Shown piece after piece: positions 5,723 to 47,113 of a stretch of 47,113 nucleotides of DNA (the first letter of the stretch is position 1; each line of letters opens with the position of its first letter). Both the position numbers and the translations under genes were made by a program. The notes beneath the pieces are model-generated. The model did no database searches. It was not told where the DNA came from and worked only from the letters and a program-made list of their open reading frames with translations. Source of the DNA: a virus; the IMG/VR virus record IMGVR_UViG_3300031224_000017, positions 1 to 47,113 of that record; one strand, 5' to 3'.

Positions 5723-8568
5723 CAGTACTTCGACCCCCAGTTTTCTAAGGGGCCATCCACGTCTGCTGTTAGTGGCACTGACCAGCCTTCTGTTGTAGTC
5801 ATACATTCCTTAACTATTCTTTTAATCTCCTCTGCGTTCTCGCGGGGAGCCTGAAGCACTATTTCATCGTGTACAGGAACAATCAGGTAATCAGTCAAGT
5901 CTGCGGCATCCAACTTTACGAGGTTGGATTTGAATACCTCGGCTGCCCCGCCTTGCACAAGGTAATTAACAAGTGTATAAGTGCGGTCATCATCGCAAGG
6001 TAGGCGTCTGCCAGTCCAAGTGTGAACGTAGCCCTCTCCTTCGTTGCGGTATCTCTGCTGGCCTACGTCGTTAACCTGCTTTTGGAACATAGCCATACCT
6101 GGATAGTTAGCATCGAATGAGTCAGAGACAGCTTGCATATTTTCTTTTGGCACGCCAGCAGTCAAAGCTTGCTTAGCCACTCCTGCTCCGTACAGGCGCC
6201 CGTAGACTGTATTTCCCGTCAAAACTGGGATTTTCTCATCCTGACGCATGGTCCAAGTTCCTAACTCTGTTGTAACGCACCAAACGTAGTCATTGGTGAC
6301 ATACTCTAGCGACGCTCTTTGGTTAGTCATTGTCTCTTTTTGATGCTGGACAACAGTAATGGGGTTTTTCTGCCAATTAGTCGAACCTTCTACAGGTAGG
6401 TATGTATCTTGTTTGGAATACTTCCCCGTTAAGTAGCCCAGCGCCACAACAAGCTCTGTTACAGGGCTATCTGATGCCTGAACAATGGAAACATCAATTT
6501 TTGTTCTGGTTCTTCTTGCTGTCTTATTCTTGCCATCAGCTTCATCTAGCCCTCGAATCATTTTTTGGCGTGCTGTGAGCGTGAGACCAGAAGCAAGGTC
6601 CCAGGGAGTAAAGTTCTTCTTGTCGTGAATACCCGCCCTAGACAAAAGCTCTCTAGCGTAATCTGGGCAGATATTCCAAACATTTTGTTTAGTTTTCTTA
6701 TTTATCCACCGTGTATGCGGAACATTGATAAGCACATTTTTAATTAAAGCAATACCAGTTTTTTTTGTTTGAAAAATCTTAACTTGACACCCGACACGGC
6801 CACCAAAAGACTGCGAGGGACCACCAACATCCTGAGACCGCTTTATTGAGCCGTCTCCAAGAATCCATCCAAGAAGGTACGCCTCTTTATCGCTAATATC
6901 CAAAGAACCGTCCTCTGCTGGAGCAGAGAGAATAATTCTATTCTCACCCGTAAGGAACTCATTTGCGTAGATTATTTTTGGCTCAGCGGCTCTGCTGCCT
7001 CCACGTCCGTTGTCAGCAACCCAGCGGTGGTCCTCTGTGCATAGAAAACTTTTATGTGCGTTCGAAAGTCTGTAAATGTCTGCATCTTCGTAGACGTGGA
7101 CATCGAGAATTTTTGTCCACTTATTTCTGCCAGTGGCAAAGTCGTAGCCGATTGTTTCATCGCTGTCTATAATCTCATTGTGATTTAGCCATCCACGTTT
7201 AGTTAAAACTTGAGAAGATAACGGGACGCATCCCTTAATCAAGTTACGCCGTTTATCGGACTTAATCATTGTTGGGTCTTGATAAACCTGCCGACCAATT
7301 TCAGTAAAAGGGTCAGAGCCTTCCGCGTCTGCGCGGTTGAACAGCTCAATAAGGTTTGGGTCACCAGACATAGAGGCGAACATACGGAACTCGACTTGGT
7401 CAAGGTCCGAGGTAATGATTACGTGATTTTCGTCTTTGGGTATAAATGCACGTCGCACAACGTCGTCGCCTTTAGGTAAAGTCTGTAGCGCGGGCTCAGT
7501 AATAGACATGCGCGAAGTCCTAGCAGCCAAAGTGTTGATAGACGGGTGCAGGAATCCGTTAGAGTTTTTCTCCATAAAGTTGCTGAAGTAGGTGCTGGCA
7601 AGCTTGTCTGCTTTACGTTGCTTGAGCACGACCTCTGCAAGGTTTTTTACCTCTGCGTTGCCCTCGATTGCGAGGCGTTTAATTTCATCTTTGCTCGCGG
7701 ACTTCTGGCCCGACGGGGTAAATGCAGTGAGCTCAGCGCCTAGACCCTCAAAAGTTCGGACCAACTGTTGATTGCTGGTCATTGAAGAGTTGTAGGTGTT
7801 GTAGAACCACAGCCTTGTGCGTTCTGTGTAGTCAACCAGTTCTTCATACTTATCTTTAGAGTACTCAAGGTCAATACGTGCACCATTGACTTCCATACGA
7901 GTGGCAATTTTTCTAACAGCCATCTCAAGTTCATAAGCTTTGTAGTAAGGACCTTCTGGCCCACACTGCTGGTAGAACATTTCCCAAAGTCTGGTTGTTA
8001 GGACCGTGTCTAGAGCGCCGTAGGCCCAGTACGGCTCGTATGTGACTGGAACAGTCCCCCAAGTCCAGCCATTCTTAATCATCCCTATGTCTAAGCCTTC
8101 TTGCAACTGAGCAGAGTGACGGTCAATGAACTGCGCAGACAACGGCTTAAGCCCAGCAGCACCGAGAGGGTTGATAATGCGAGCCATAATCATTGTGTCG
8201 TGGGCACGGTCCCAAGGCATCTCCCACTCAGACTTGACGGCAAACCACTTGGCTTCAAAAGCTATGTTGTGACAAATTACAGGGCCAGAGAACTGCTTCA
8301 TAGCCTGATAAAATACTCCAGCCCAGCTCTCCCAAGGAATCGCCCAGCCCTGCATGCCATCGCCAACCTGAACAAGACGGATTCGACCGTGCCAAGGAGA
8401 GAAAGCGTCCTTCTTTGGATTACCTGGAAGTTCGCCTGTCTCAATGTCAACAGAAATAGCGTTGTGGGGGCGGCGCTCGCTCATCCAACGTAGAAATTCT
8501 TCAGCTTTTTCGACGCTGTCTACTAAATGAAGCTGCACCTGAGATAAGTCAGTTATCTTGTCTGTCAT
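5722..8568 (-). CDS. polA: Family A DNA polymerase (PolA) interrupted by an intein
   Basis: A 948-residue precursor; without the intein the polymerase is 608 residues, normal for actinophage PolA. The N-terminal 3'-5' proofreading domain is present: Exo I SVDIETG (Asp41, Glu43), Exo II region CHNIAFEAKW (99-108) and Exo III YGALD (183-187). Polymerase motif A is SDLDQVEFRMF (Asp388). Motif B is split: KRRNLIKG (439-446), then the intein, then TVYGRLYG (787-794); joined they give the R-x4-K-x3-YG pattern of the fingers helix. Motif C is PVHDEIV (His900, Asp901, Glu902). No 5' nuclease domain is present. The gene starts 37 bases after an unknown gene, with CAGGGAC as ribosome site. It is the phage replicative polymerase, and activity should require protein splicing. 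Confidence 0.93.
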   Translation of the reverse strand: MTDKITDLSQVQLHLVDSVEKAEEFLRWMSERRPHNAISVDIETGELPGNPKKDAFSPWHGRIRLVQVGDGMQGWAIPWESWAGVFYQAMKQFSGPVICHNIAFEAKWFAVKSEWEMPWDRAHDTMIMARIINPLGAAGLKPLSAQFIDRHSAQLQEGLDIGMIKNGWTWGTVPVTYEPYWAYGALDTVLTTRLWEMFYQQCGPEGPYYKAYELEMAVRKIATRMEVNGARIDLEYSKDKYEELVDYTERTRLWFYNTYNSSMTSNQQLVRTFEGLGAELTAFTPSGQKSASKDEIKRLAIEGNAEVKNLAEVVLKQRKADKLASTYFSNFMEKNSNGFLHPSINTLAARTSRMSITEPALQTLPKGDDVVRRAFIPKDENHVIITSDLDQVEFRMFASMSGDPNLIELFNRADAEGSDPFTEIGRQVYQDPTMIKSDKRRNLIKGCVPLSSQVLTKRGWLNHNEIIDSDETIGYDFATGRNKWTKILDVHVYEDADIYRLSNAHKSFLCTEDHRWVADNGRGGSRAAEPKIIYANEFLTGENRIILSAPAEDGSLDISDKEAYLLGWILGDGSIKRSQDVGGPSQSFGGRVGCQVKIFQTKKTGIALIKNVLINVPHTRWINKKTKQNVWNICPDYARELLSRAGIHDKKNFTPWDLASGLTLTARQKMIRGLDEADGKNKTARRTRTKIDVSIVQASDSPVTELVVALGYLTGKYSKQDTYLPVEGSTNWQKNPITVVQHQKETMTNQRASLEYVTNDYVWCVTTELGTWTMRQDEKIPVLTGNTVYGRLYGAGVAKQALTAGVPKENMQAVSDSFDANYPGMAMFQKQVNDVGQQRYRNEGEGYVHTWTGRRLPCDDDRTYTLVNYLVQGGAAEVFKSNLVKLDAADLTDYLIVPVHDEIVLQAPRENAEEIKRIVKECMTTTEGWSVPLTADVDGPLENWGSKY
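6211..7230 (-). other. Intein with LAGLIDADG homing endonuclease inside PolA motif B
   Basis: This segment encodes residues 447-786 of the polymerase precursor (340 aa). It starts with Cys447 (CVPLSSQVLTKRGW, block A), has the block B motif CTEDHRWV (Thr511 and His514), a first endonuclease motif YLLGWILGDGS (Asp572), a second MIRGLDEADG (Asp678), and a block F-like stretch YVWCVTTELGTW near 761-772. It ends PVLTGN, followed by Thr787 of the C-extein. The boundaries are exact because removal restores the family A motif B. The penultimate residue is Gly785, where most inteins have His; inteins without that His are known and often splice more slowly or by altered assistance. The endonuclease would cut intein-free polA genes and spread the element. 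Confidence 0.92.
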
Positions 8569-8605
8569 TTTGTCCCTGTCATTTTGTGTTGCTATTGTAT
8601 CTTAT

Positions 8606-9079
8606 TTAAGGAATCATTTCTACCCTGTATATACGCTCAATTTCTGAGTCCGCATTTGAAGCCTGTTCCAGTAGCCTTTGAGCAACTTTTGTCAGGTAAC
8701 GAGCGCCACCGTCGGGGTCAAATTTATACAAAGCATCCAGTACTGGACCTGGCTCGTCGCTAACCTGAGCCCAAGTTCGGTCTTGTTCTGGGAACAATAA
8801 AGGCATGTTTCTGTCAGGTCTGCACTCTACGCACGGGATTGCGTCATCTGAAAGCTGTTCTGACTTTAGCTCACTAAGGCCGTACCTTTTGACTAGAGAG
8901 CAAGTTGCTGCATGGAATACAAGCGAGATGCCTATTCTAGAAAGTATGTAAGAGCCGTTCTCGGTACGGTAGAGCTTAAACTCAATCCATCTAAAAGAGT
9001 CGTATCTTTTGGAAGATGACTCTCCTAAAAGTTGGCCGCTAAATTGTAAAGTTCTGGACCCGTCTTTTACTTCAAACAT
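8606..9079 (-). CDS. Unknown protein with Cys motif, between tail and replication modules
   Basis: A 157-residue protein not assigned to a named family. The N-terminal half is beta-rich (LQFSGQLLGESSS, RWIEFKLYRTENGSYILSRIG), followed by an HAATC segment and, near residue 95, CVECRPDR, giving three cysteines that might bind a metal. The C-terminal third is helical and acidic. Its general form (a strand-rich start describing a tyrosine- and arginine-rich sheet, then HAxxC and CxxC) resembles conserved proteins of unknown function in other actinophages. The start overlaps the upstream stop as TAATG, so it is co-translated with the 120-residue gene. Its position just before polA and at the end of the tail cluster leaves its role open; no enzymatic motif is visible. 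Confidence 0.6.
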   Translation of the reverse strand: MFEVKDGSRTLQFSGQLLGESSSKRYDSFRWIEFKLYRTENGSYILSRIGISLVFHAATCSLVKRYGLSELKSEQLSDDAIPCVECRPDRNMPLLFPEQDRTWAQVSDEPGPVLDALYKFDPDGGARYLTKVAQRLLEQASNADSEIERIYRVEMIP

Positions 9080-31094: not shown

Positions 31095-31402
31095 TAGGCT
31101 TCCTCACTGTCTTCTAATTCTGGATTAAGATTTCGTAAGTCATCTGCTTCTGACACCTTACGAATAACGTATTGAGCATCGAAAGCTTCAAAAGTAATTA
31201 TACCGTCTGAATCAATATTGACATCCTCGCTATCAACCAAGAAGTCGTATCCGTAGTCGCTCATGTCTACAGTAATATAGTCGTCTGGGCTGCCTGTTGA
31301 AGAGGTAAGAGTGGCCCCAAAAATGTACCGTTTGAAGACCCCCTCGCTAGAAGTTTTCTCAAGAATACCTTCGCCTTTAAAAATTGGTCTAACGTCTATC
31401 AT
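31094..31402 (-). CDS. Small acidic protein of unknown function (102 aa)
   Basis: A 102-residue acidic, mostly beta protein: GVFKRYIFGATLTSSTG, YITVDMSDYGYDFLVDSED and GIITFEAFDAQYVIRKVSEA. No family was recognised. The start overlaps the stop of the 3501-residue giant (TAATG), which couples their translation closely. The giant carries a possible toxin domain at its C-terminus; a small acidic protein made immediately after it has the genetic position of an immunity or chaperone protein, but nothing in the sequence proves that. The C-terminus is Glu-rich (NPELEDSEEA). Confidence 0.6.
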   Translation of the reverse strand: MIDVRPIFKGEGILEKTSSEGVFKRYIFGATLTSSTGSPDDYITVDMSDYGYDFLVDSEDVNIDSDGIITFEAFDAQYVIRKVSEADDLRNLNPELEDSEEA

Positions 31403-32000
31403 TACTTAACTCCAAACATTTCTTCTACGGGTTTTCCAGAAATCTCGGTGATTCCTTCTGCTGTTAGCCGCTCTAATAAAAACTTCCTAGCAGATGAGTC
31501 CAAGGCTATCCCAGAAAGGTCTGCCCAGCTGAGATTATCCTTGAACAGTACTTCTGATAGTTCTGTCTTCTTTAGAAGCTCTATATAGTCAGTATCGGCT
31601 ACTTTTTTACCCCATGCGTCATAGCTAGAACCGTAAAACTCGGGGCGGCGAATAAGTTGGACTCCGTCAAAGAAGAACTGTAGCCTTTTGAAGGCAGACT
31701 TGTTCAGGTCCATAAAAGAAACTTTTGAAGTAAAAATGTACCCTGCTCCAACTCCCGCAAGGTCGGAGGAGCTTGACTGGCCCTCAGTGTTTATCCCTTC
31801 GCTCCAACGAGTAACTGTGGAATACAATCCGCCACCCTTTTTGAATAGCAAATCGTAGACAAAGTCTGCACGTTCTTTGTCATCATCAGGTAAATTTTTG
31901 CTAGCAAAGTTGTGCTTAAAGAACTCAACTCCATATGTTGCCGCTAGCTGCTCTGCAACTTGTTCTGGAAGAAGATACTGGATAATACCCTTTTGCTGCT
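31400..32000 (-). other. ADP-ribosyltransferase-like C-terminal domain of the giant protein
   Basis: The last ~200 residues contain GLYSTVTRWSEGI with Arg3367, followed by EGQSSSSDLAGVGAGYIFTS (Ser3378-3381) and, near the end, LSEVLFKDNLSW with Glu3452. Order and spacing fit the R-S-E triad of arginine-type ADP-ribosyltransferases, and the Gly-x-Ser-Ser-x-x-Asp, Gly-x-Gly/Ala-x-Tyr-x-Phe-Thr stretch resembles ART domains reported in other actinophage head-module proteins. Preceding residues (~3200-3340; SVSLHNRVELLLPEDATPED, ILDEVEKNYSFTADNMEVRV) are conserved-looking accessory strands. Substrate is unknown. Confidence 0.62.
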
Positions 32001-35000
32001 CGTCTACACGGACTTCCATGTTGTCGGCAGTAAAGCTGTAGTTTTTCTCTACTTCATCAAGAATCTGCTTACGAAGCTCTCCCTCGTAGTTTTTTGCTCC
32101 GTTGCCTTTTTGACCAAAGAGGCTAATAATTTTGTTTTCCGCTACTCCCTTAAAGTCTGACTTCATAGCGGGGCGTATTTCTTGGATAGCATTCAATTCT
32201 TTTAGGGCAGCTGCAATGTCCTCGGGGGTAGCATCTTCTGGTAAGAGAAGCTCTACTCTGTTGTGAAGAGATACCGAGCCATTGTTGGAGCCACCTTTAT
32301 TGAAGAAATCGGGAGTGTTTGCACTTCGGTTAGCTCTAATAAATTGGAACTTACCTTTGCCATCAGTAAGGTCTCCTCTGTATGTACGGCCCTTATTGTG
32401 CGCATCGACTTTATTGGAGTTCCACTCTTCTTCAAAAACAAGAGAACCGTCTGGGTTGACCTTGTAGTTATCTAGCCTGGATTTATCTTGAACATCAGAT
32501 AACTGCTGCTTAGCTAGTTTTTTGGTGAAAGCGTTACCCGCCCAGTTGGTCAATTTAAAGGAAAGACGGATTTGCTTTGCGCCGTCTTTTTCTACTTTTT
32601 GAATACGAACTTTTAAGTCTTCTATGTCCGCGCTGTCAAGCATAATCTGAGCGCCGTTGGTGGCGTCTAGAGGGTCACCAGAGTTTACTTTGTCAAGAGC
32701 ACTCTTAAGGCTAGGAACTTGCGCAAGCGGAGTCGAGCTCCAGTCTGCGTCGCCCTCTAGAGTTTCTACAGCAAACCCAGGGCCCTCAACTGTGAACTTA
32801 TCCGCTAAGTCTTGCTTGGCTTTCTCGATTACGGCTTTTTTAGCAGCTTCTTCTTTTTGCTTCTTTTCTTGTGCTGCTTGAGCAACGGCTTGCTTTTTTG
32901 CCTCTTCAGCTTTGGCACCCTGAGCCTTTATAGCTTCAGTACGAATTGAGTCGTCTACTTCAATCCCCAGCTCTTTGGACTGCTCGTTAGTTAGAAACTT
33001 CTCGCGGCTCCATACGTTTTTTTGTTCTAGCTTTTGGGTAGTGCCTTTCATTGGCCCGTCGAAGTACGTAACCTCTACGGCAGGCTCACTTGGGAAAGTC
33101 TTTGTTACGACACCGTGGCTTGCAAGTTCTGGGTTTGGCGCGTCTGGGTCTTGGTTAGAAGCAATAATTCCAGGGAGCATATTCTGACCAGTGGATGTTG
33201 CGTCTTTTACCAAGTACTTTTTAACAAGGTCTTTGTATTCGCTCTTATTTGAAGCACCAAAGTAAGAAGTATGCATTGCAGAGTTTTTATCTACAGCTAC
33301 AGATTCAACTTCAGACAGGCTACTTTCTGGGGTAAGACCGCTTGGGGCCACTGCTTCAGCTGGTTGTACCTCTTCTGGCTCGGGTGTAGGTGCTTCAGGC
33401 GCTGGTGTCTCGGGAGTAGTTGGTGGGGTTGGTGTTCCGCCGCCGCCGTCTCCTTCTTGTCCAGAGTCTTGGTCAGGTCCGTCCTCAGGGGATTGAGAGC
33501 CTTCAGGCATTAAGAAGGTGGAAGCTTTCCAGTTTGCTTTAGCTTCTCCTTCAAACTTTACCTTTGCAACGTCTGTGTAGGTGTAGACCTTGCCGCCAGC
33601 TTTAACAACATACTGGTCTTTTAGAGAAGTTACAATACCTTTTTTGCCTGTCTTAGTGTTAATAACAGTCATGCCAACCTTGACAACAGTTTTGCCGTCA
33701 GCAGATACATAAGACCCTGATTGCTTAGGAGGCATAGAAGGCTGAAGCGTTGTTACTCCTTCTTTTTTAGACACTGAAGCAATTTTGTTTGGGAAGTTCT
33801 GGCTCTTGTAAATCTCATTAGAAATTCGGCTATCTAGTGCCGTGAAAGAGTGCCAACGACCCTTCATTTCTTTAACTCTAGTCTGCCCCGTCTCCTCGTC
33901 TGTTACGCGGTGATAGATGCTGAAGGTGTTATCGGAGTTGCGCTTAACAAGCACATCTAGACGTTTGCTACCAAAATTGAGAGAAGACACGACAACGTGG
34001 CCGTTATTCAAAACGCTGCCTTCATAATCCTCAATAACCTTTGCCCAAATTAAGTCAGGGTCTGTAGGATTGGCCAATTCTTGGGAAAGCTCGCCGAGGT
34101 CAATTTTGGAGACTTCAGCTGCAGGGATGTCTTCGTCACCGTCAATTGGGACGAGAGACTGTTTTATGTCGGCATCAGCTTTTTCTATAGGGGTTTCTAT
34201 AGGTACAAGCGCAGGCGCAGGGCTATTCAGGTCGTCAAGGATAGACTGAACAAGTTCTGGGTCTTCTACCTCGTTATCTAAAAATCCTTGAAGAATCTGC
34301 TTAACTTTTTCGGGGTCTTTTGTGCCGAACAAAGCCTCAGCAATGTTTTCAACTTTTTCAAGAAGTTTTTGCTTTTGGTCTTGAGGCACTTCAGTTGGCT
34401 TTTGTGCTTCGACAGGCTCAATCTCCGTGTCAACAGTTATAAGGCTTGGCGTCTCTGGAGTGGCTAGGTCGGGGGCAGTTGCCTCGGAGGGGGTGGCATT
34501 CGCCTGTTCCATCTTTGACAGGCTGTATGCGTAGAACTTCCCATTAGGAAGTGTTCCACCAACAGCGACGTTCCCAGCTTTGGAAGTTTTTACTTCTGCT
34601 GGGGAAAGGTCTACTGCTTTGCCGTTGTACGTGAAGACAATGTTGATTCCAGTAGCAATTGCATCCTGAATTTGAGCATCAAGGTCGTCAATTAGGTCTT
34701 CTGGGTCTGTGTCGTCAAATGAGAGAACTAGCTTCTCTGGGCCACCCTCTGCGGCAGCAGGAGCTTCAATAGGCGCATCGTCAAGTCCATATATTTCAAT
34801 AAGCTCGTTACGACGACGCTTTAGGTTTTCCTTAAGCTTGTCTGCAATAGATTGGCTGTCAATGCCTTCAACACCGCCGCCAAAGGCTGCGTCTACAAGT
34901 TCATCTATTTTGGCTTCGTCAATATTTGCAACGAGCTTTGCTGACTCAGCAATCTCGGCGTCGGTCATGTCTCCGAATACGCTTGCTGCCTGAGAGTTAA

Positions 35001-38000
35001 CATTTGAATCGCGAAGTGAGCTAATCTGCTCTGCGACATTTGTATCCAGCTCTTTGGCCTTGTCAGCTCCCTGAGCACGGAAGAGCAGTGCACCACCAGC
35101 GTCAATACGGAAAGGCTTGGCGTTGGCAACAACAATGTTGTCCTTCTCAAGGCCGATGACATCGTAGTTGTTCATCCACGCGTCAACTGCAAAGCCCTTT
35201 TTGATTTCGTCAGTAATGTTTTGGTTAGGTGCAATCTGACCGAGAGTTCCGTCGGTTCCATCAATGAAAGGAGAGACTATAAGCATTTTCCCAGCTTTGT
35301 TCTTACCAATGTAAGAACGACCAACGTCTAGACCAGCCTCTTCGTACAGCGCGGAGGCAAGAACTTCGTTAGCTGCGTGGGACTCACTCTGTGGGGTTTT
35401 AACGTAGTACTGTTGCCCGCTGTCTGGGTCAACATAGAACGCACCTCGGTTTGACCCAGTTTGCCCTGAAACTTTTTTCCAGTTAGAGGTGTCAAAGACT
35501 TGACCCAATGAGCCGCTCTGTACCTCAGGGATAACAATTTCATCAGGCTCAGCTGTCGTAGGCTCGTCGAGCGCAAGGCCCAAGAGAACATCTGCGGTGT
35601 CTGCAAAGTTGTCCTGAAGAGTGCCTTGAGAGGCCATCTTGCTAATTTGGTCAGCAGTGAACCAGCCAACCTCAGAGCTTTCTCCATCTTTCGGTGACAA
35701 GTCGTTTAGCTGGCCTGGTCCCACCTCGAAGACGTGAGTGTTGTATGTCCAACCAGGAGCAACTTCATTAGCAAACTGACCGACTGGGAAAACGGAGTCT
35801 GGCCCTAAGTCGCCGCCAACTTCTTCTTCGAATTCGTTGATTGCAGTGATGATGCCGTTATTTTCTTCGGAGTCACTCTTATCCTTGTGGGCACCCCCTG
35901 GGTATCCCCACTTTCCGCCGCCCTGCGAAAGTCCAGAGGAGCGCTTTGCTAGGAAGTACTCAAAGACGCCCTCGTTGTTCTTACGGCGAACTAGAGCGCC
36001 AGCAGCGCCAAACTTGCCCCAGAAACGCATTCCATTTGTAGCAAAGAAGTAGCCATCACCTTGGTCGGGCTTATTGCCGCCACCTATCGGAGCAAAGAAC
36101 GGCAACTGAGGGGGAGTCATCACGCCGCTTCGTAGCTTCTGAACATCAGAGCTAGAGATTCCGTCAGCATAGTAAACACCGTCAGCATCTTGCTTAATGT
36201 CGTAGCTCTGCCACTTCTCAATGGTAGTTTCCGTGTCGACATTAGGAGCTGCTTCTTCAATAACAGGAGCGTCAACTTCACCGTTGCGGCGTCGAATCTC
36301 GTAAGCCTGGAACTTTACCCAAGACTTGTTCATACCGTACTCTTTGCCATTTATAAGCAAACGACGTCTTACAAACACCTTGCCTGAGCTAGCTGGGTCC
36401 TCAACAACCTCAAGGACTTCAAACCAGTCACCTGATTTAGCGCGAAAGAAGTCTCCTGCCTGCCACTGCTCAATAGGGACTTTGCCAAGCGATGTAGTGT
36501 TCTCGTTGTCATTTACCCAGTTATTTGAGATGGAGTCGCCTAGTACGGATTGAGTTTCTAGGTCGCCGTCCCCTAAATCAACCTTAGCCGCGGCTGTAGC
36601 AGAAGTAGCCTCATCAGAAGTTGGACGAACCTTAGGCATTGTCTTTACAATTTCGTCAACTGTAGAGACCTTAGCGTCGCCACCAAAAGTATCTTTAACG
36701 ATTTTAGAGACAGGAAGGCTTGTGTCAGCGAGGTCTTTTTTAGCCTGGGCTGCTTTGAACTTTACAAGTTCCTCTTCATACTTTTGCATGTTGGCGTCAA
36801 CGTTAAGAGCTGAGAGTCCTTGCTTTGTCTTAGACATCTCTTCTAAAAGATTTTTTAAGATTGGAGGAAGTACATCACTATCAGTTACCGCGTCGTGCCA
36901 GCTGCCGTTAGGTACAATTCCGTAGCGGCTTGCAACGTTTTGAAGCGTGTGCGCTTTGTAGCCTCCGTTAATAACAAGACGAGCTAGGGATAGGGTGTCT
37001 ATCTCCCCGCCTGGATTGTACTGAAGGTTGAACTTTTGGGCGAAGCGCTTCATAATGCCACCATCAAACGGCACGTTGTGAGCTAGAACAATTGTGTCAG
37101 GGCCAATCTTTTCAAGAAGCTTTGTCATCTGCTCTTGGATAGAAGGCTGCTCTGCCAAGAACTCATTAGAGACTGGCTTACCAGAAGGGTCTTTTAGGGT
37201 CTCGTCTGGGTCGGCGTTCTTGTAGAAGTCTGAAAGTGGCACTTCTGGGTTCATCCAGTAAGCTCCGACGCCAGTTGATAAACCATCTTTGATTTTGGTC
37301 CATGCAACTTGAATAGGTGTCTGGCTGTCAAATGCACCGTCAGCTGCAGTCTCGAAGTCGAGATAGATTATCTCTTCTTTTTCTAGAAGCTCTAGGAACT
37401 TTGTAGGGTCGCCAGCTGCTTCAATTTCAATCTGCTTGAGCCTATCCCCAGAGAATGCTGGATAGGCAGGAGGCTTTGGCTTAGAAGGAGTCTTTTTCTT
37501 AGGCTTGTCGGTGGCTCCTGTTTGAGCAGTTGAAACGGAGTCTGGGTCGATTGGAGGAGTAAAGCCTTCTGCGGAGAGCTTCTTTGCTTCCTTGAATGCG
37601 GCTTTCTTCTCTACTAAATCTGGGTCAGTCTTGTCTGGGCGTGAAAGCGCTGGCTTTTCTCCAGGAGCTGGCAAGTTAGAGGCACCGCGCATTACCGTAA
37701 TCTCAGTGGTGGCGTTCCACTCTTTTGTTTGCGAAACGTGCCCTGGGTAGTACCCCTGAACAACGGCCTTTCCGTCTACTTCTTCTACGCCTTCAATAAT
37801 GAAGTACTCGTAAAAATCAGAACCCCACTCTTTTTTGAAAGTGACGTCTCCAGCTTTCACTTCTGTAGCCTTAACCGTGGTTATACCAACGGGTGTTGCT
37901 GGGCTAAACGGTAAGGCAACTTCCTCGGTCTGCCACACAGCAAGAGTCTGGATGTCAGGTTTGGTCCATAGCCCCTGAGCTTGCGCTAGGTTTTTGTTGT

Positions 38001-41000
38001 ACTCGTCTAAAGCATCAAGAAATTTGCTACGAGCTTCTGCGTCCTTAGGAACAAAAACCCCTAAGTTCTTGTCCTTAAAAATCTTACCTTCGGGGTCAAA
38101 TTCTTTTGGCTTTGGCTTAGATAGAACTGGGAGGTCTCCCTTTGCAGGAGCTTCTACATTGCGGTAAACTTTAATCTGAACATTCTTGCCCCAGAGCTTT
38201 GTCTTCTGAGTCTGGTGTCCAGGGTAGTATCCCTCAATCCAAACGCTTCCTGGCTTTTGTGCCTCTGAGTCAGCGTCGGAGAATACATTTTCAATTACAA
38301 AGTTGTCAGAGAACGTAACATCCCCTGCTTTAAGGTTCTCGGCACTGGCGCTTAGTAGAGCTGGTCCGTCTGGTTCTCCTGTTGAGATTTCTGGCGTAGA
38401 TGTGGCTGTGTCAGCGGCGGCTACTGGTTCGTCTGCAGCTGGAAGTTCTGCTACTGGGGTTTCTTCGGGGGTAGCTTCGACTTCTTCAACATCCTCGCCG
38501 TCAATAGCGTCTTGGATTTGAGCATTAGTAGGCTCGTCAAAGTTTTGCCCTTTTAAGCCCTCTGCGTAGATAGCATCTATAAGTTCATTAGTATCCACGC
38601 CTTGTAGCTGAAGTGCGTCACGAATGGCCTCAACTGGGACGTTTAGTTGAAAGACTTCTCCTTCAGGGGTTTCCATTGCCAAGATTCCGTAACCTGGAGT
38701 TGAGTTGCCTGGCTCTAGAGCACGGCGAAGTTCTGCAATAAGATTTTCATTGCTGTAGTCATTGGCAATGTCCACTGGGTTGATAGAGAACCCCTCAGGA
38801 GCATTCTCTGGGACATCCCCCTCTATCTCATTAAATGGTACTTCTTCAATCTCTGAATAGCCTTCTGGGACTTCGCCCTCTCCGTAGACTTTGTTCTCTG
38901 GAAGATAAGGCTTGTAGTCGCCTGACTCTATCAAGGCCTGCTGCTCTTCGTCACTTAAGCCCTCAAGAAGTGGGGGTAATACTCTATCTGTGGGCTCAGC
39001 AAGTGCTGGCTCAGGTAGCTCCTCTCCTAGGGCAATTTCTGTAGCCTTAGGTATTTGAGCACCCAAGTTGCCATTACCACTTTTGTAGATGTCGTCGAGA
39101 ACAGCTTTAGCGTTTACGCCCTTCTCATCGAGAGCCGCATATATGGCCTCAACTGGGACAGCTTCGTCTCCCTCTGAGAACGGTAGGTAGCCAAATCCAG
39201 TAGCAGAGTTTTCATCGGAACCAAGAACGCCCTCATTAAGGGCATTAACCAAATCTTTAACTGAAAACTTCTCTGAGAGCTCAGCGGGGTCATCCGTAAA
39301 GTCGTCAGACTCTTGTCCATCAACGGCTCCCTGAGGCTGGTAGGGGGCGTCTGTGTTTATTTCGTAGTAATTGGCTGGAGTAGGGGCAACCTCAGGCTCT
39401 ACAGGTGCCTCAGGGGCTGCGGGAGCTTCTACAGGCTGTGCCTCTTCTGCCTCGACTGGGGCGGGGGTTGCTGCTGGTTCTGCCTCTGGGGCATCTTCTT
39501 CTATGAGGTCAGAAGGGTTGTCTTCTTTCCACATTTCAACTTTGCCGTCATTTCCGAAGCGCGGAGGCATGCCACTTTGAATATCCGTGACTCGGTCGCC
39601 GTCTTTGTTGAGGGATAGTTCTCCATCAGCATCAACAAGTTCTCCCCAAATCCTGTGGTTTGTAGGCTTTTTAGCTCCCTTTGCTCCCTTTTCAGTAACT
39701 AGTCCTTGGCTGTCAAGAAGGTCCTTACGCCAGACACGCCAAAGGTCCCCGTCTTCGTCCCTATAAAAGTCCCCAATGTCGAACTCACGGACTGACTTGC
39801 GTCCATTATTGAAGATTCGCTTGCCACCAATGTTAATGGCTTCTTGTTCAAAGGCTTCTTCTGATATGTTGAAATCGTCAGGGTTTGGAGCTTCTCGATT
39901 GCTTCGAACAGAGAGTCCAAGCTTTTCTACACGCTTTGTGGCTTCATTAAAAGACAACCCATCGCGCTTCATTATCTGAGCAAGGGTCTCGCCGCTGATT
40001 ACATTTTTGCCCTGAGCCTGTGCTTCCCTGACAACCCGCTGCATCGCGGTTTCTCGATTACGTATTTCTGAAAGTTTTTTGAAAAGCTTTAGAAGACGCT
40101 TTGGCTTTTTTGGTGCTTCCTCTTCTTGCCCGTCAAAAATAAGCTTTGGTTCTTCACGAGGAGGCATCGGCTTAACGCCTCCACCTGGAAATCTAGGTGG
40201 TTCTGGCCGAAAGCCGCCATCTCGGTTGGTAGGGAGTTCTGGAAAAACAACATCAATATTTGGACTAGGGGTTGATGGCTGTGCAGGCCGTCGAGGCTGT
40301 CTAGGCTGTCTAGGCTGCTCTTCAGCTTGTGGAGCAGGAGTCTCTACTTCTTGGTCGGGGATAATCGCAACTGGTGGCTTTTTCCAAGCGTCTGGGTCTG
40401 AGAAGCCCTTGCTATCACGAACAACAATGCCTGTTGCAGAATCTATAATTGTGCCGTCGTCAAGAATGAAGTGCTCGCGGCGTGGGTCTATTGGGAACTC
40501 TAGGCCCTGCTCTTTGTAGCGCTCAAGCATCCTGAGGTAAGCGTTAACTTTAAATCTGTTGGCATTAGGTTTGCCCTTGATACGAGCGCCTTTGCCTCTT
40601 ACATCCTCAGGGTTTACCTTGTTTCCAACTCTTAGCTTACTAAGAATGGCTTTACCAATACTCTTTGGGCGTTTTGGGTTTGGGGCTTCGCTTTTCTTGT
40701 AGTTAGGCTCGTCGGCCTCTACTAGCTCTCCAACGTCTCTCCATGATTGAACTGCTGCGAAGTCTTTCTCGTTCTCGTCTTTCCTACGAAGAAGGTAGAC
40801 AGGAAGGTCTTCGTCGAGAGTTCCATCCTCGCCTTTTCCGAAAGCAACTGCACCCTCGTCTTTGTTTTCTCTTGCCTGAACAGCGTTGAACTTAGCCGTA
40901 GCTGCTTCGTTGGGCTCTTTAAACTTCTTAACTTCGTAGTTCCCGCCAGCATTTGCGTAAACGGCACCTAAGTCTTCGTCTTCGTCGTAAAAATCTTTTT

Positions 41001-41907
41001 CTTCTTGAGGTACCTCGTAGGCAGTATCTAGGTCCCAGCCGTCAGGAGACTCTACAAATTCAAGGTCTTCTTCGTTTACTACTTCATCACTTGCACTTAC
41101 AGATACAGGGTTTTCGCTGTAGCCGTCAGAGCTCTTATTTGAAGGCAGAATTGCCTTAGCAGGGATAGCATTAGCGGAGGGAATTCTTGCAAGCTTGCCG
41201 TCTGGTAGCTCGGAGATTATTGTTGAGTCGTTAGGATTGGTAGACACTATTTGACCAGCGAGGTTATAAACTCCGCCAGTGAGTTTGCGAATGAGGGCCA
41301 TAATTGCGCCGCCCATAAACGCAAAGCGTCCCTTGATACGAAGCTGCCTGCGCCAGAAGCCATCATTGGCTCCGTCGTTGTAGGCAGCAACCAAAGCAAC
41401 CAAAGGCACTTGGCTTGGTCCCATAGCGTCGAGGCGAGCAAGAGCGTATAGCTGCTCATCGCTGTTTAGGGTTGAAGTGAAAGCCGTGGCAAGAAGTGGG
41501 GCCACTAACGGGTTTGTTACCCGAGGGTCGTCAGCGAACCAACGAGACTGCGCCTTACGAAGCTCTTTCCACTCTACGTTGTGCTCCTTAGTAGAGCTAG
41601 GGTGCGAAATGGAAAGCAAGTCTGTGTGTGAGGCCTCTGTTAGGCCTTTGTCACGCTGCACAAGAAGCGCAAACTCCGAAAGCGCTAGTAGTGCTCGGTA
41701 ACGACGGACCGAGTAAGTCTCGTTGGAGTTGGCTTTGATAGAGCGAAGAACTACTTTTTTCGCTGAGCCAGCTGTGACGCGGCGTGTAATTCCGAAGGAA
41801 CCATTCAACTCTACAAGGGAGGCAACAGCTTCGCTAGAAATGTTTACGTTCTGCTCTTCATAAGAGACCGAATGTGTTGCTGGCTTAATTGGGTATTCGT
41901 TACTCAT
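31402..41907 (-). CDS. 3501-aa giant polyvalent protein: exonuclease, Nudix-like, kinase-like and ADP-ribosyltransferase-like domains
   Basis: One uninterrupted frame encodes 3501 residues in the head module. Visible parts in order: N-terminal helical region with GRFAFMGGAIMALIRKLTGG (~192-211); Pro/Arg/Glu linkers; two copies of an ~70-residue unit (~877-945, ~1049-1117); two copies of a GYYPGH unit (~1192-1262, ~1347-1409); DnaQ-type exonuclease (~1505-1700); barrel with AGDFFRAKSGDWFEVLEVV (~1812-1876); Nudix-like domain (~1960-2095); kinase-like domain (~2135-2380); small barrel resembling WYL domains (INIVFTYNGKAVDL, ~2415-2460); a KOW-like strand pair (VGMTVINTKTGKKGIVTSL); a Lys/Ala/Glu helix; and a C-terminal ART-like domain. 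This is the layout of polyvalent proteins, which phages inject with DNA to counter host functions. Its ATG overlaps the previous stop by eight bases. Injection is inferred; the domains are read directly. Confidence 0.82.
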   Translation of the reverse strand: MSNEYPIKPATHSVSYEEQNVNISSEAVASLVELNGSFGITRRVTAGSAKKVVLRSIKANSNETYSVRRYRALLALSEFALLVQRDKGLTEASHTDLLSISHPSSTKEHNVEWKELRKAQSRWFADDPRVTNPLVAPLLATAFTSTLNSDEQLYALARLDAMGPSQVPLVALVAAYNDGANDGFWRRQLRIKGRFAFMGGAIMALIRKLTGGVYNLAGQIVSTNPNDSTIISELPDGKLARIPSANAIPAKAILPSNKSSDGYSENPVSVSASDEVVNEEDLEFVESPDGWDLDTAYEVPQEEKDFYDEDEDLGAVYANAGGNYEVKKFKEPNEAATAKFNAVQARENKDEGAVAFGKGEDGTLDEDLPVYLLRRKDENEKDFAAVQSWRDVGELVEADEPNYKKSEAPNPKRPKSIGKAILSKLRVGNKVNPEDVRGKGARIKGKPNANRFKVNAYLRMLERYKEQGLEFPIDPRREHFILDDGTIIDSATGIVVRDSKGFSDPDAWKKPPVAIIPDQEVETPAPQAEEQPRQPRQPRRPAQPSTPSPNIDVVFPELPTNRDGGFRPEPPRFPGGGVKPMPPREEPKLIFDGQEEEAPKKPKRLLKLFKKLSEIRNRETAMQRVVREAQAQGKNVISGETLAQIMKRDGLSFNEATKRVEKLGLSVRSNREAPNPDDFNISEEAFEQEAINIGGKRIFNNGRKSVREFDIGDFYRDEDGDLWRVWRKDLLDSQGLVTEKGAKGAKKPTNHRIWGELVDADGELSLNKDGDRVTDIQSGMPPRFGNDGKVEMWKEDNPSDLIEEDAPEAEPAATPAPVEAEEAQPVEAPAAPEAPVEPEVAPTPANYYEINTDAPYQPQGAVDGQESDDFTDDPAELSEKFSVKDLVNALNEGVLGSDENSATGFGYLPFSEGDEAVPVEAIYAALDEKGVNAKAVLDDIYKSGNGNLGAQIPKATEIALGEELPEPALAEPTDRVLPPLLEGLSDEEQQALIESGDYKPYLPENKVYGEGEVPEGYSEIEEVPFNEIEGDVPENAPEGFSINPVDIANDYSNENLIAELRRALEPGNSTPGYGILAMETPEGEVFQLNVPVEAIRDALQLQGVDTNELIDAIYAEGLKGQNFDEPTNAQIQDAIDGEDVEEVEATPEETPVAELPAADEPVAAADTATSTPEISTGEPDGPALLSASAENLKAGDVTFSDNFVIENVFSDADSEAQKPGSVWIEGYYPGHQTQKTKLWGKNVQIKVYRNVEAPAKGDLPVLSKPKPKEFDPEGKIFKDKNLGVFVPKDAEARSKFLDALDEYNKNLAQAQGLWTKPDIQTLAVWQTEEVALPFSPATPVGITTVKATEVKAGDVTFKKEWGSDFYEYFIIEGVEEVDGKAVVQGYYPGHVSQTKEWNATTEITVMRGASNLPAPGEKPALSRPDKTDPDLVEKKAAFKEAKKLSAEGFTPPIDPDSVSTAQTGATDKPKKKTPSKPKPPAYPAFSGDRLKQIEIEAAGDPTKFLELLEKEEIIYLDFETAADGAFDSQTPIQVAWTKIKDGLSTGVGAYWMNPEVPLSDFYKNADPDETLKDPSGKPVSNEFLAEQPSIQEQMTKLLEKIGPDTIVLAHNVPFDGGIMKRFAQKFNLQYNPGGEIDTLSLARLVINGGYKAHTLQNVASRYGIVPNGSWHDAVTDSDVLPPILKNLLEEMSKTKQGLSALNVDANMQKYEEELVKFKAAQAKKDLADTSLPVSKIVKDTFGGDAKVSTVDEIVKTMPKVRPTSDEATSATAAAKVDLGDGDLETQSVLGDSISNNWVNDNENTTSLGKVPIEQWQAGDFFRAKSGDWFEVLEVVEDPASSGKVFVRRRLLINGKEYGMNKSWVKFQAYEIRRRNGEVDAPVIEEAAPNVDTETTIEKWQSYDIKQDADGVYYADGISSSDVQKLRSGVMTPPQLPFFAPIGGGNKPDQGDGYFFATNGMRFWGKFGAAGALVRRKNNEGVFEYFLAKRSSGLSQGGGKWGYPGGAHKDKSDSEENNGIITAINEFEEEVGGDLGPDSVFPVGQFANEVAPGWTYNTHVFEVGPGQLNDLSPKDGESSEVGWFTADQISKMASQGTLQDNFADTADVLLGLALDEPTTAEPDEIVIPEVQSGSLGQVFDTSNWKKVSGQTGSNRGAFYVDPDSGQQYYVKTPQSESHAANEVLASALYEEAGLDVGRSYIGKNKAGKMLIVSPFIDGTDGTLGQIAPNQNITDEIKKGFAVDAWMNNYDVIGLEKDNIVVANAKPFRIDAGGALLFRAQGADKAKELDTNVAEQISSLRDSNVNSQAASVFGDMTDAEIAESAKLVANIDEAKIDELVDAAFGGGVEGIDSQSIADKLKENLKRRRNELIEIYGLDDAPIEAPAAAEGGPEKLVLSFDDTDPEDLIDDLDAQIQDAIATGINIVFTYNGKAVDLSPAEVKTSKAGNVAVGGTLPNGKFYAYSLSKMEQANATPSEATAPDLATPETPSLITVDTEIEPVEAQKPTEVPQDQKQKLLEKVENIAEALFGTKDPEKVKQILQGFLDNEVEDPELVQSILDDLNSPAPALVPIETPIEKADADIKQSLVPIDGDEDIPAAEVSKIDLGELSQELANPTDPDLIWAKVIEDYEGSVLNNGHVVVSSLNFGSKRLDVLVKRNSDNTFSIYHRVTDEETGQTRVKEMKGRWHSFTALDSRISNEIYKSQNFPNKIASVSKKEGVTTLQPSMPPKQSGSYVSADGKTVVKVGMTVINTKTGKKGIVTSLKDQYVVKAGGKVYTYTDVAKVKFEGEAKANWKASTFLMPEGSQSPEDGPDQDSGQEGDGGGGTPTPPTTPETPAPEAPTPEPEEVQPAEAVAPSGLTPESSLSEVESVAVDKNSAMHTSYFGASNKSEYKDLVKKYLVKDATSTGQNMLPGIIASNQDPDAPNPELASHGVVTKTFPSEPAVEVTYFDGPMKGTTQKLEQKNVWSREKFLTNEQSKELGIEVDDSIRTEAIKAQGAKAEEAKKQAVAQAAQEKKQKEEAAKKAVIEKAKQDLADKFTVEGPGFAVETLEGDADWSSTPLAQVPSLKSALDKVNSGDPLDATNGAQIMLDSADIEDLKVRIQKVEKDGAKQIRLSFKLTNWAGNAFTKKLAKQQLSDVQDKSRLDNYKVNPDGSLVFEEEWNSNKVDAHNKGRTYRGDLTDGKGKFQFIRANRSANTPDFFNKGGSNNGSVSLHNRVELLLPEDATPEDIAAALKELNAIQEIRPAMKSDFKGVAENKIISLFGQKGNGAKNYEGELRKQILDEVEKNYSFTADNMEVRVDEQQKGIIQYLLPEQVAEQLAATYGVEFFKHNFASKNLPDDDKERADFVYDLLFKKGGGLYSTVTRWSEGINTEGQSSSSDLAGVGAGYIFTSKVSFMDLNKSAFKRLQFFFDGVQLIRRPEFYGSSYDAWGKKVADTDYIELLKKTELSEVLFKDNLSWADLSGIALDSSARKFLLERLTAEGITEISGKPVEEMFGVK
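34770..35505 (-). other. Kinase-like domain of the giant protein
   Basis: Residues ~2135-2380. SGQTGSNRGAFYVDPDSGQQ then YYVKTP has the Gly-rich strand-turn-strand and Lys of a protein-kinase-like N lobe. ANEVLASALYEEAGLDV is the following helix, MLIVSPFIDGTDG the hinge. DAWMNNYDVIGLEKDNIVV and FRIDAGGALLFRAQG resemble the catalytic and metal-binding loops (Asn/Asp, then Asp-x-Gly) in HipA or PI3/4-kinase-like folds. The helical end ELIEIYGLDD closes it. Kinase activity is inferred from pattern. Confidence 0.55.
35620..36030 (-). other. Nudix-like domain of the giant protein
   Basis: Residues ~1960-2095. The Nudix course is AAGALVRRKNNEGVFEYFLA (first strands), SQGGGKWGYPGGAHKDKSDS, then ITAINEFEEEVGGDL. 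This corresponds to the Nudix box G-x5-E-x7-R-E-x2-E-E-x-G with a few extra residues after the first glycines and Asn in place of the Arg; the E-x-E-E-V-G helix is intact. The end EVGWFTADQISKM is the typical W-F closing motif. Such domains cut nucleoside diphosphate linkages, e.g. in NAD(H) or ADP-ribose. Confidence 0.72.
36800..37395 (-). other. DnaQ-type DEDDh 3'-5' exonuclease domain of the giant protein
   Basis: Residues ~1505-1700. All three exonuclease motifs are present and in order: IIYLDFETAADG (Asp-x-Glu), LAHNVPFDGGIM (His-Asn-x-x-Phe-Asp) and GSWHDAVTDSDVL (His-Asp-Ala-x-x-Asp). The HTLQNVASRYGI stretch before the last motif is also typical of this family. The domain should remove nucleotides from 3' ends of DNA or RNA with two metal ions. 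It is separate from the proofreading domain of the phage polymerase. Confidence 0.88.
37680..38340 (-). repeat. Duplicated GYYPGH unit in the giant protein
   Basis: Two copies (~38120-38340 and ~37680-37865) encode KAGDVTF, a strand ending FVIENVF or YFIIEGVEE, then GYYPGHQTQKTKLWG or GYYPGHVSQTKEWN, a strand, then PAKGDLPVLSKP or APGEKPALSRP. Length is ~65-70 residues each with a spacer of ~85 residues. The unit looks like a small all-beta (SH3/KOW-like) domain. Confidence 0.75.
38560..39275 (-). repeat. Duplicated ~70-aa acidic unit in the giant protein
   Basis: Copy 1 (~39075-39275) and copy 2 (~38560-38760) encode FSVKDLVNALNEGVLGSDEN or YSNENLIAELRRALEPGNST, next GFGYLPF or GYGILAM, then VPVEAIYAALDEKGVNAKAV or VPVEAIRDALQLQGVDTNEL and DDIYKSG or DAIYAEG. 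The alignment shows a helix, a short strand pair and two helices. Function is unknown. Confidence 0.75.
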
Positions 41908-45474: not shown

Positions 45475-45803
45475 TACTTGGTGTACTCCGATGGGATATA
45501 GAAGTCCTCCCAACCTAAAGCCTCTTTGGCAATAGGAAGCGGAACTATCAACGGTCGAGTGCGCTCGCTAGAGCGGATGAATTCGAATACTTCGTCTCTG
45601 GTGCGAATAAGAGTGGCATTCTGCCAATCGCGGTTCTTTATAAGCGTCTTGAGCGGAAAGGCCATGGGAAAACGTGAATTTTCAGCGGTCATGGTCTCAA
45701 GAAAGCGGGACTGGGCTGAAGTCTTAGTTTTGGGGTTCATCCAAATAACAACAGCTAGCTCAGCTTCTGTGTAGGTGCCGCTCTGGGTAGTGTAAGTTCT
45801 CAC
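45474..45803 (-). CDS. Unknown small basic protein
   Basis: A 109-residue protein starting MRTYTTQSGTYTEAELAVVI. The middle has WMNPKTKTSAQSRFLETM and LIKNRDWQNATLIRTRDEV, with Arg and Thr prominent, and the end is IAKEALGWEDFYIPSEYTK. No family is recognised, nor any membrane segment or cofactor motif. The ATG overlaps the stop of the HTH gene (ATGA) and its stop overlaps the next ATG, so it belongs to the same mRNA. A small DNA- or protein-binding role is plausible from charge but unproven. Confidence 0.58.
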   Translation of the reverse strand: MRTYTTQSGTYTEAELAVVIWMNPKTKTSAQSRFLETMTAENSRFPMAFPLKTLIKNRDWQNATLIRTRDEVFEFIRSSERTRPLIVPLPIAKEALGWEDFYIPSEYTK

Positions 45804-46297
45804 TTGCTCAGTCTTCTGGCCATAGCGCGGTATGAAACCCCAGCGGCTGTAGCAATCTTTGCTGTGGGGACGCCCATGCTTCTGAGAGCCACAGCCATTG
45901 CGGTGAGGTCTCGGTTGGCTTTAGCAAAGGGAGAGTCTGAAGTCGTGCGGGCGCGGTAACGCTTCGCAAGCTTGGCTAGCTCCTTTAGGCGCGGTTTCAT
46001 GTCTGGCGGAACGTTGGGGGAAACTGAGCGCAGTCGGGGAGCTTTTTTAGTGGGAGTCGCAGTGGTAAGGCTGCGGGGCGGAGGCGTGGGTATCTCACGG
46101 AACTGCTTTATTGCTTCTGCTTTTTTTACCCAAAAATGAATCGTAGTCTTGGGTCGTTTGGGCTCGAGCGACTCTCCAAGAATGGAAAGAGACCAGCCAG
46201 CATCCCAGAGAGCTTTAAGACGCGCCTCAGCTTCGGGGCGGGAAAGGGAACTGATGAAGTTCACTTCGTCCTGAGGAAGCAATGTCTTTGGGCTCAT
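45800..46297 (-). CDS. Double helix-turn-helix DNA-binding protein
   Basis: A 165-residue basic protein with a likely HTH at each end. The first is RLKALWDAGWSLSILGESL followed by TTIHFWVKKAEAI (~25-65). The second is at the C-terminus: ALRSMGVPTAKIATAAGVSY then RAMARRLSK, a clear HTH of the resolvase/Cro type. Between them lies a Pro/Thr/Arg linker and a basic helix (RLKELAKLAKRYRART). It is the first gene of the leftward block, next to the control region. It could be a transcription regulator, or a small-terminase-like packaging recogniser because it lies just before the head genes. The start is ATG at 46297; a 94-codon upstream extension is open but has no gene-like sequence. There is no clear Shine-Dalgarno site. 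Confidence 0.66.
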   Translation of the reverse strand: MSPKTLLPQDEVNFISSLSRPEAEARLKALWDAGWSLSILGESLEPKRPKTTIHFWVKKAEAIKQFREIPTPPPRSLTTATPTKKAPRLRSVSPNVPPDMKPRLKELAKLAKRYRARTTSDSPFAKANRDLTAMAVALRSMGVPTAKIATAAGVSYRAMARRLSK

Positions 46298-46657
46298 TGT
46301 TCTATGGTACAGGGTTTTGAGAAAGCGTACAGGGGCGAGAGTCCGAAGAATGTTGAACGGCAGAGTCGAAAGAATGAACCTTATCTTTTTTTGAATTTTA
46401 GCTGCGAGTGGGCTGTCGTTATATTTCAAGATTTTTTGAATCGTTTCCTGATTTTTTCCGCAAGGTCGGGCGCTTCCTGGCGCAGGAATCTGAAGAAGCA
46501 AAGGGTCATCTTTATTGTCTGTCGCTTCTGCTGCTGTAGCGCCTAGCGGGGGGTTTATTTTTAGCAAGCAAAGAAACATTTATTTACAAACTATTTTTTA
46601 TAAAGTGTTTGGGCTAGAGCTAGGTGTCTCACAAAGAAATAGTTTTGCTATCTAGGA

Positions 46658-46688
46658 CTAATAGTTGTTTGAATCTACAAACTATTAG
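46658..46688. repeat. 9-bp inverted repeat, operator-like
   Basis: CTAATAGTT (46658-46666) and AACTATTAG (46680-46688) are perfect inverted copies with a 13-base spacer. The two centres lie about two helical turns apart, a spacing used by dimeric repressors. It lies in the divergent control region, within a group of other repeats. Confidence 0.6.
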
Positions 46689-46712
46689 TGCTTGACATCT
46701 CAAGCTACGAAT

Positions 46713-46742
46713 CTCACAACCTAGCAAAGCTCACAACCTAGC
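46713..46742. repeat. Tandem 13-bp direct repeat, iteron-like
   Basis: CTCACAACCTAGC occurs at 46713-46725 and again at 46730-46742, a period of 17 bases. A diverged match with the same order of short words (ATCTCACGAAC then AAAGCTCAC) appears at 46968-46990 just after the promoter. Direct repeats of this kind bind initiators or regulators; the low copy number leaves both possible. Confidence 0.55.
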
Positions 46743-46778
46743 TAGGAAATCTCTGGAAGCTTTCTCTAGGGGCTAAGC

Positions 46779-46792
46779 CTAGGAATTCCTAG
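46779..46792. repeat. Perfect 14-bp palindrome
   Basis: CTAGGAATTCCTAG is fully self-complementary with no spacer and contains an EcoRI-type GAATTC core. It sits among other CTAG-rich motifs in the control region and could be a repressor operator. A nearby imperfect hairpin (GGTTCT at 46831-46836 and AGAACC at 46846-46851) adds to the symmetry of the region. Confidence 0.6.
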
Positions 46793-46935
46793 ATAAGTGT
46801 CTATGCCTTTTTGCAGAGCTATAGGGCCTAGGTTCTGAGAATCTAAGAACCCCTTCACTAAATCAGACAACACGCATAGCTATCTGTGGCGTTGATGTTC
46901 TTAATTTTCAATAGGCAACCCCCTACAAAATAAAT

Positions 46936-46965
46936 TTGGCGAACAGCAGGAAGATACACTATTAT
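46936..46965 (+). promoter_or_regulatory. Probable sigma70-type promoter for the rightward gene
   Basis: TTGGCG (46936-46941) and TATTAT (46960-46965) are separated by 18 bases. They match -35 and -10 hexamers acceptably, and the start of transcription would fall near 46972, about 44 bases before the ATG at 47016. It is the best promoter candidate in the window; matching was by eye. Confidence 0.55.
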
Positions 46966-47015: not shown

Positions 47016-47113
47016 ATGAAAACAGCAGGACTACACATAACAACGGCAAACGAAATCAACTCTATGGAACTAGTGACCTATGACAGCTTGGTTCAAGCTG
47101 TTGGGGGCTATCT
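47016..47113 (+). CDS. DUF3846-like protein, C-terminus cut by window edge
   Basis: The only gene found on the plus strand. An ATG at 47016 follows the strong site AGGGGGAAGGAC. The 32 whole codons in the window read MKTAGLHITTANEI, then a strand region and YDSLVQAVGGY. The pattern tyrosine-x-x-leucine-x-x-x-valine-G-G-tyrosine at this distance from the start is typical of DUF3846 proteins, short phage and actinobacterial proteins of unknown function. The gene begins a rightward transcript opposite to the large leftward block, and so probably belongs to the early region. Only the start can be judged. Confidence 0.6.
   Translation, partial: MKTAGLHITTANEINSMELVTYDSLVQAVGGY

Follow-up and report, generated by a model that had tools for sequence, protein, structure and literature searches.

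What might a dense cluster of CTAG words do in the gap between two divergent transcripts of a phage genome? The window analysed here (the whole stretch of DNA under study, 47,113 bases) is a fragment of an uncultured phage and consists almost entirely of one leftward run of structural and replication genes. The long structural operon opens with a gene on the minus strand (45803–46297; listed from 45800) that encodes a 165-residue protein with two helix-turn-helix domains and a disordered linker, hereafter HTH1; the gene starts at 46297, and the open frame itself begins at 46579. On the other side of the gap, a rightward early gene (47016–47113, plus strand) starts with the ATG at 47016 and is cut by the record end (open frame 47016–47111); its 32 residues gave zero family matches. 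The original prediction placed the cluster between divergent genes beside an HTH gene, a layout that is indeed there and is kept in most relatives, and suggested that it may be the main control or replication origin region.

The window contains exactly ten CTAG words that start between 46614 and 46828 (array 46614–46831), in agreement with the roughly ten per 250 bases first reported. The accompanying estimate of about one CTAG by chance holds for base composition (0.98 expected in mononucleotide shuffles of 46600–46860) but not for dinucleotide shuffles of the same segment, which yield 3.6 (sd 1.6; P 0.0004 for the ten observed, 5000 shuffles). The perfect 14-bp palindrome CTAGGAATTCCTAG (46779–46792) was also found, as were the 9-bp inverted repeat (TATCTAGGA at 46649–46657, TCCTAGATA at 46787–46795), the 13-mer CTCACAACCTAGC (starts 46713 and 46730) and the GGTTCT/AGAACC hairpin (46831–46851, GGTTCTGAGA / TCTAAGAACC, starts 46831 and 46846). 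Taken alone, the palindrome is unremarkable because the window holds nine perfect palindromes of at least 12 bp, two others of which also reach 14 bp. The 13-mer is part of a 16-bp direct repeat (AATCTCACAACCTAGC / AAGCTCACAACCTAGC, 46710–46742, 94% identical, 17-bp spacing). The strongest hairpin of the region, which was absent from the earlier list, is an inverted repeat (46651–46695) with 16-nt arms at 46651–46666 and 46680–46695 that are 88% complementary around a loop of 13 (core ACTAATAGTT / AACTATTAGT). The folding of 46600–46860 is only mildly unusual (z -1.8; 8 of 200 shuffles folded equally well). A scan of the region against Rfam returned zero families at the gathering threshold, and its DNA similarity to isolated phages was limited to 28-base chance matches to Streptococcus phages.

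We gathered relatives by HTH1 and portal searches and defined clades by clustering on upstream DNA. Ninety-four sequences carried HTH1 (93 loci and the window); after removal of three loci with a wrong slice (L013, L053 and L084) and of eight with less than 600 bp upstream, 83 remained and fell into 29 clades. CTAG was counted 240–640 bp upstream of HTH1, where the 29 clades hold 172 words, compared with 71.8 in shuffles; 25 clades lie clearly above expectation, one equals it and three fall below (L057, L064 and L090). CTAG is the top enriched 4-mer upstream of HTH1 in this set, and the leading longer words are CTAGTCA/TGACTAG (37 compared with 2.3 expected, in 16 clades) and the AAGTTACT/GTTACTAG types. 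Many clades contain longer palindromes such as TGACTAGTCA and GTTACTAGTAAC; the window's own clade has a plainer array, with CCTAGG-like flanks and without CTAGTCA. Equally dense CTAG in other places, which had been named as an observation that would speak against a special region, was found neither elsewhere in the window (at most 4 in the densest 250 bp) nor in the rest of the relatives' records. Relative to those records, the array is 4.7-fold denser in CTAG, 61-fold in CTAGTCA and 77-fold in GTTACTAG, and it is the record's CTAG peak in 16 of 29 clades, with ties in 5.

The enrichment recurred outside the discovery set. A second search brought 81 loci, 71 of them with sufficient upstream DNA; 59 belonged to the old clades and 12 formed new ones, in which CTAG occurs 88 times compared with 31.9 expected (the highest of 200 shuffles gave 43), CTAGTCA 21 times compared with 1.0 and GTTACTAG 12 times compared with 0.4. 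Among the other 4-base palindromes counted in these 12 clades, CATG and GATC showed no enrichment, and TTAA, GTAC, ACGT and AGCT fell below expectation. The array sequence turns over fast between clades while the number of CTAG words stays high. The array is thus a real, conserved and specific element. Its variation, together with the fact that the window's own copy lacks full extended palindromes, would be compatible with compositional drift that piles up CTAG in a functionless non-coding gap; this we regard as highly improbable, given the enrichment in clades that played no part in the discovery, the lack of enrichment of the other 4-base palindromes, and a one-sided peak at a set distance from a conserved block in two phage groups, as described below.

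HTH1 recurs in all 41 relative clades. Outward from it, the order in the relatives is a strongly conserved block of about 110 bp, an AT-rich trough, the array, a promoter-like motif and a divergent small gene. In the window, the block occupies 46341–46453 (minus strand; match E 5.8e-20), and the AT-rich stretch that separates it from the array lies at 46551–46610 (22% G+C); the trough is also visible in the mean profile of 29 clades (mean G+C 0.29–0.34). A putative early promoter-like site on the plus strand (46936–46965) consists of TTGGCG and TATTAT, 18 nt apart, with CAGGAAGAT between them, and its counterpart in the relatives reads TTGACA ... GTGCAGGAAGGT. Words like GTGCAGGAAGRT (at most one mismatch) number 5, 8 and 9 in G001, G008 and G009, with one each in G003 and G012. 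The TTGACA-N-GTGCAGGAAGGT motif recurs in early-gene regions of relatives (for example L100–L106 of G009 and L118–L123 of G008), and plain sigma-70 promoters do not usually have such a conserved spacer.

The block is what connects the metagenomic phages to phages with deposited genome ends. It is present in all 41 clades (27 of which trained the profile described below), with one copy per record, and is conserved together with the packaging and portal module, as is expected of a packaging terminus. Isolated relatives carry homologues of HTH1 and of the portal; the isolates with HTH1 that were compared leave out Racecar, Talia1610, a second Pumpernickel record and one more isolate. In the deposited linear genomes of the Microbacterium phages Cece, Zooman, Pumpernickel and A3Wally, the direct terminal repeats are exact and measure 18,079, 17,079, 19,963 and 15,503 bp, respectively; that of Big4 is 17,669 bp as deposited and was checked over the last 3,364 bases. 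The right repeat boundaries of the first four align with the metagenomic block; in A3Wally, for instance, the boundary reads ...AATATAAGGAT / TTTCCTCTCAGCGGCCAAACG...TAAGGTTCA...GTACA, the slash marking its position.

As a blind test, we built a nucleotide profile exclusively from 27 metagenomic clades (L057 and L079 were excluded). Its top match fell on the repeat boundary in the genomes of Pumpernickel (E 0.0019), A3Wally (E 0.0038) and Cece (E 0.037); at the Big4 boundary E was 0.35 (first 26 kb searched), and the Zooman boundary was the second match in its genome (E 6.8). These matches are weak one by one, and the evidence is their agreement in place. Two further matches lie just upstream of HTH1: one in phage DSL-LC01 (E 0.01), the other in a contig that was binned with an Aquiluna genome and whose HTH1 is 34% identical (E 2e-5). 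In Mimi (19,868-bp terminal repeat), the profile search found no block at the genome end, and the CTAG peak is absent there too. By homology to the deposited isolates, the block would mark where the virion DNA physically ends. Contig ends were also considered as evidence for such an end and set aside, since those that begin about 20 nt ahead of the predicted cut number just two (L177 and L043).

Alignment to the deposited repeat ends of Cece, Zooman, Pumpernickel and A3Wally puts the predicted terminus, or terminase cut, of the window's phage between 46414 and 46415, with the terminal-repeat side from 46415 up and the late-gene side from 46414 down. The window's array would hence lie 200–416 bp from the terminus. 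When the 41 clades are aligned on the predicted cut, CTAG peaks at about 150–500 bp on the repeat side, with none within 400 bp on the other side. The mean of the five Microbacterium phages likewise has a one-sided CTAG peak, at about 150–600 bp on the repeat side (for Big4, whose end was deposited 10 bp earlier than the aligned boundary, the geometry uses the aligned boundary, 17,679, and not the deposited 17,669). Repeated sites thus stand at a set distance from the cut both across the 41 clades and in the five-phage mean. Taken singly, the CTAG excess over shuffles is significant in Zooman (P 0.005), A3Wally (P 0.001) and Big4 (P 0.0035); the terminal cluster of Cece is not significant against dinucleotide shuffles (P 0.20), and the Pumpernickel terminus has no CTAG excess (3 compared with 3.0 expected). 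Over the whole genome, CTAG reaches its maximum at the terminal cluster in Cece, Zooman and A3Wally; in Pumpernickel it does not. A natural test is offered by L079, in which a gene separates the block from HTH1 by 1,266 bp; it is a weak one, with just 3 CTAG words on the array side.

The Microbacterium phages resemble the window in their homologous boundary block, portal and HTH1, and four of the five have an inner-side CTAG cluster at the same distance (significant in three). Unlike in the window, their HTH1 gene lies about 7–11 kb from the terminus, beside terL, and the last gene of the repeat points toward the array. Homologues of gene 1, which stands at the left end of the Microbacterium repeats, occur in G003, G008, G009 and G012, 21–26 kb from the block and on the same side of it, and in DSL-LC01, about 26 kb from its block; in the metagenomic phages, a left repeat end beside gene 1 was sought, and none was recognisable. 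DSL-LC01 has the block beside HTH1, but with a CAC-rich repeat region in place of CTAG. Its CAC/CGC-rich repeats (L137 around 7900–8750, corresponding to 45,955–46,800 of DSL-LC01) lie between terL and HTH1, at the array's expected place, and a gene annotated within them may be spurious.

The adjoining HTH gene, the early promoter-like site beyond the array, the palindromic words in many clades and the divergent genes on both sides in most would all suit an operator array, in which the CTAG palindromes would be the target of a phage regulator, perhaps HTH1, that controls the divergent early and late promoters and so the early–late switch. We consider this unlikely. The distances between CTAG words and the promoter vary from less than 10 to more than 300 bp, with no phasing at 10, 10.5 or 11 bp, and in six full records clusters resembling the consensus occur only at the array region (G009 and G003) and not at other early-type promoters. 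Moreover, the array exists where the flanking genes are not divergent: in the Microbacterium phages the gene before the array points at it and the next genes point back, and in the Aquiluna contig HTH1 shares its orientation with the gene before the array. Across the sequences compared, what consistently accompanies the array is the block and not a promoter, which favours a packaging terminus.

An origin would consist of repeated sites by an AT-rich stretch at which an initiator melts the DNA; an AT-rich trough does adjoin the array, and there is one such region per record. It is nevertheless a very unlikely explanation, since no initiator gene was recognised beside the region and DnaA-box-like words are fewer than in shuffles (24 compared with a mean of 44.7). 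The GC-skew analysis put forward as a check for an origin gave no switch at the region in the long records. Of the original prediction, the conserved cis-acting region therefore stands, the comparison with relatives having upheld its conservation (172 compared with 71.8 in 29 clades and 88 compared with 31.9 in the 12 further ones), but a better reading exists than an origin or an operator of the HTH gene, because the array follows a block that is the terminal-repeat boundary in isolates and because it is also found without a flanking divergent promoter.

We conclude, with a probability of about 0.6, that a large actinobacterial phage has its packaging terminus in this region, the array probably serving as docking sites for the terminase; judged from the sequence comparisons, a packaging role of the array is more likely than one in replication initiation or in ordinary gene switching. 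The terminase would most likely cut replicated DNA inside the block, at the position predicted from the isolates, so that the late operon would adjoin the resulting end. The array, inside that end on the early-gene, terminal-repeat side, would then provide repeated docking sites for a DNA-binding packaging protein, for which HTH1 is the first candidate, and repeated binding may position the large subunit at the cut, as the cosB sites do for lambda. Several of the results above speak against this reading: the missing or weak CTAG excess in Pumpernickel, Cece, DSL-LC01 and Mimi, the three clades below expectation, the weakness of the single profile matches in the isolates, the lack of a recognisable left end in the metagenomic phages, and, for HTH1, its distance from the terminus in the Microbacterium phages and its lack of a structural match to known small terminases.

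Known packaging sites offer partial parallels. SPP1 and SF6 package by a circularly permuted headful mechanism. In P1, the pac hexamers form an array of short words around the packaging cut, with TGATCR sites under the control of Dam methylation; an array of short words at a packaging cut is what we propose here as well, the words being CTAG instead of TGATCR. In SPP1/SF6 pac, direct repeats surround the cut and span promoters and the start of the small-terminase gene (PMC4737164); the repeat sequences differ from those described here, and the window's HTH1 is only a candidate small terminase. The isolated SF6 small-terminase domain is reported to have little preference for the pac repeats (PMC4737164), which argues against the proposed packaging terminus. 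In lambda, the cosB sites R1–R3 are repeated small-subunit sites beside cosN whose spacing positions the nuclease (PMC4669245); the three lie within about 120 bp, and the lambda ends are cohesive. Unlike in lambda cos, up to 19 CTAG words are found here, 150–560 bp from the predicted cut, and the isolates have long terminal repeats. Searches of one literature library found no description of CTAG arrays at phage genome ends.

A serious rival is a signal that stops DNA injection, as in T5, in which repeats close to the inner end of the left terminal repeat would hold up DNA entry once the early genes are inside. In T5, the injection stop signal lies near the inner end of the long terminal repeat; in the isolates, the array has a comparable position, close to the inner end of a long repeat that carries early-type genes. 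Repeats, inverted repeats, palindromes and DnaA boxes are reported to make up the T5 signal (PMC13250531); repeats and palindromes are found here as well, but DnaA-box-like words, as noted above, are not enriched. This lack of enrichment and the set distance to the cut site, which points to packaging, make an injection stop quite unlikely in our view. If a role in DNA entry were true, it would extend a T5-like process to actinobacterial hosts.

The assignment of HTH1 within the packaging terminus that we favour was approached through its structure and gene neighbourhood. The AlphaFold2 model (mean pLDDT 86) has two helical domains. HTH1 matched no Pfam family above the cut-off and no PHROG, and small terminase was absent among the PDB matches listed by a structure search. 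In the window, terL was not identified next to HTH1; in Cece, Pumpernickel, Zooman and A3Wally, the HTH1 homologue directly follows terL. HTH1 is accordingly a candidate for a small terminase subunit or a regulator: we did not file it as a small terminase because it lacks a family or small-terminase match, and it is the first candidate for binding the array because of its place beside terL in the Microbacterium phages. A second two-HTH protein paralogous to HTH1, HTH2, is encoded near the array in G003 (7933–8367), Cece (gene 45, the last gene of the terminal repeat) and L226 (8026–8613). The presence of HTH1, HTH2 and a CTAG array on L226, the contig binned with the Aquiluna genome, hints at hosts among the Microbacteriaceae.

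A bolder and rather unlikely reading is that large actinobacterial phages share an undescribed genome-end element, made of a conserved cut block and a much faster-evolving array (CTAG in most, CAC-type in DSL-LC01) that would either dock a two-HTH packaging protein unlike known small terminases or bring about a T5-like pause in DNA entry. The predicted terminus would give a sequence handle on genome ends in common uncultured freshwater actinobacterial phages, by which contigs can be oriented and termini predicted. Among the isolates, Zooman, A3Wally and Big4 would offer a fast-evolving recognition array by a conserved cut, which bears on how a terminase chooses its own DNA.

Two further features of these genomes were observed. 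The contig G005 (L037 and L054; 160,704 bases) carries two different HTH1–portal modules about 136 kb apart and is either a chimera or two joined phages. In the window, a single open frame of 3,501 residues (31402–41907, minus strand) lies between the portal and maturation genes and the capsid genes, and DSL-LC01 has a very long gene (52800–62669) just after its portal gene.
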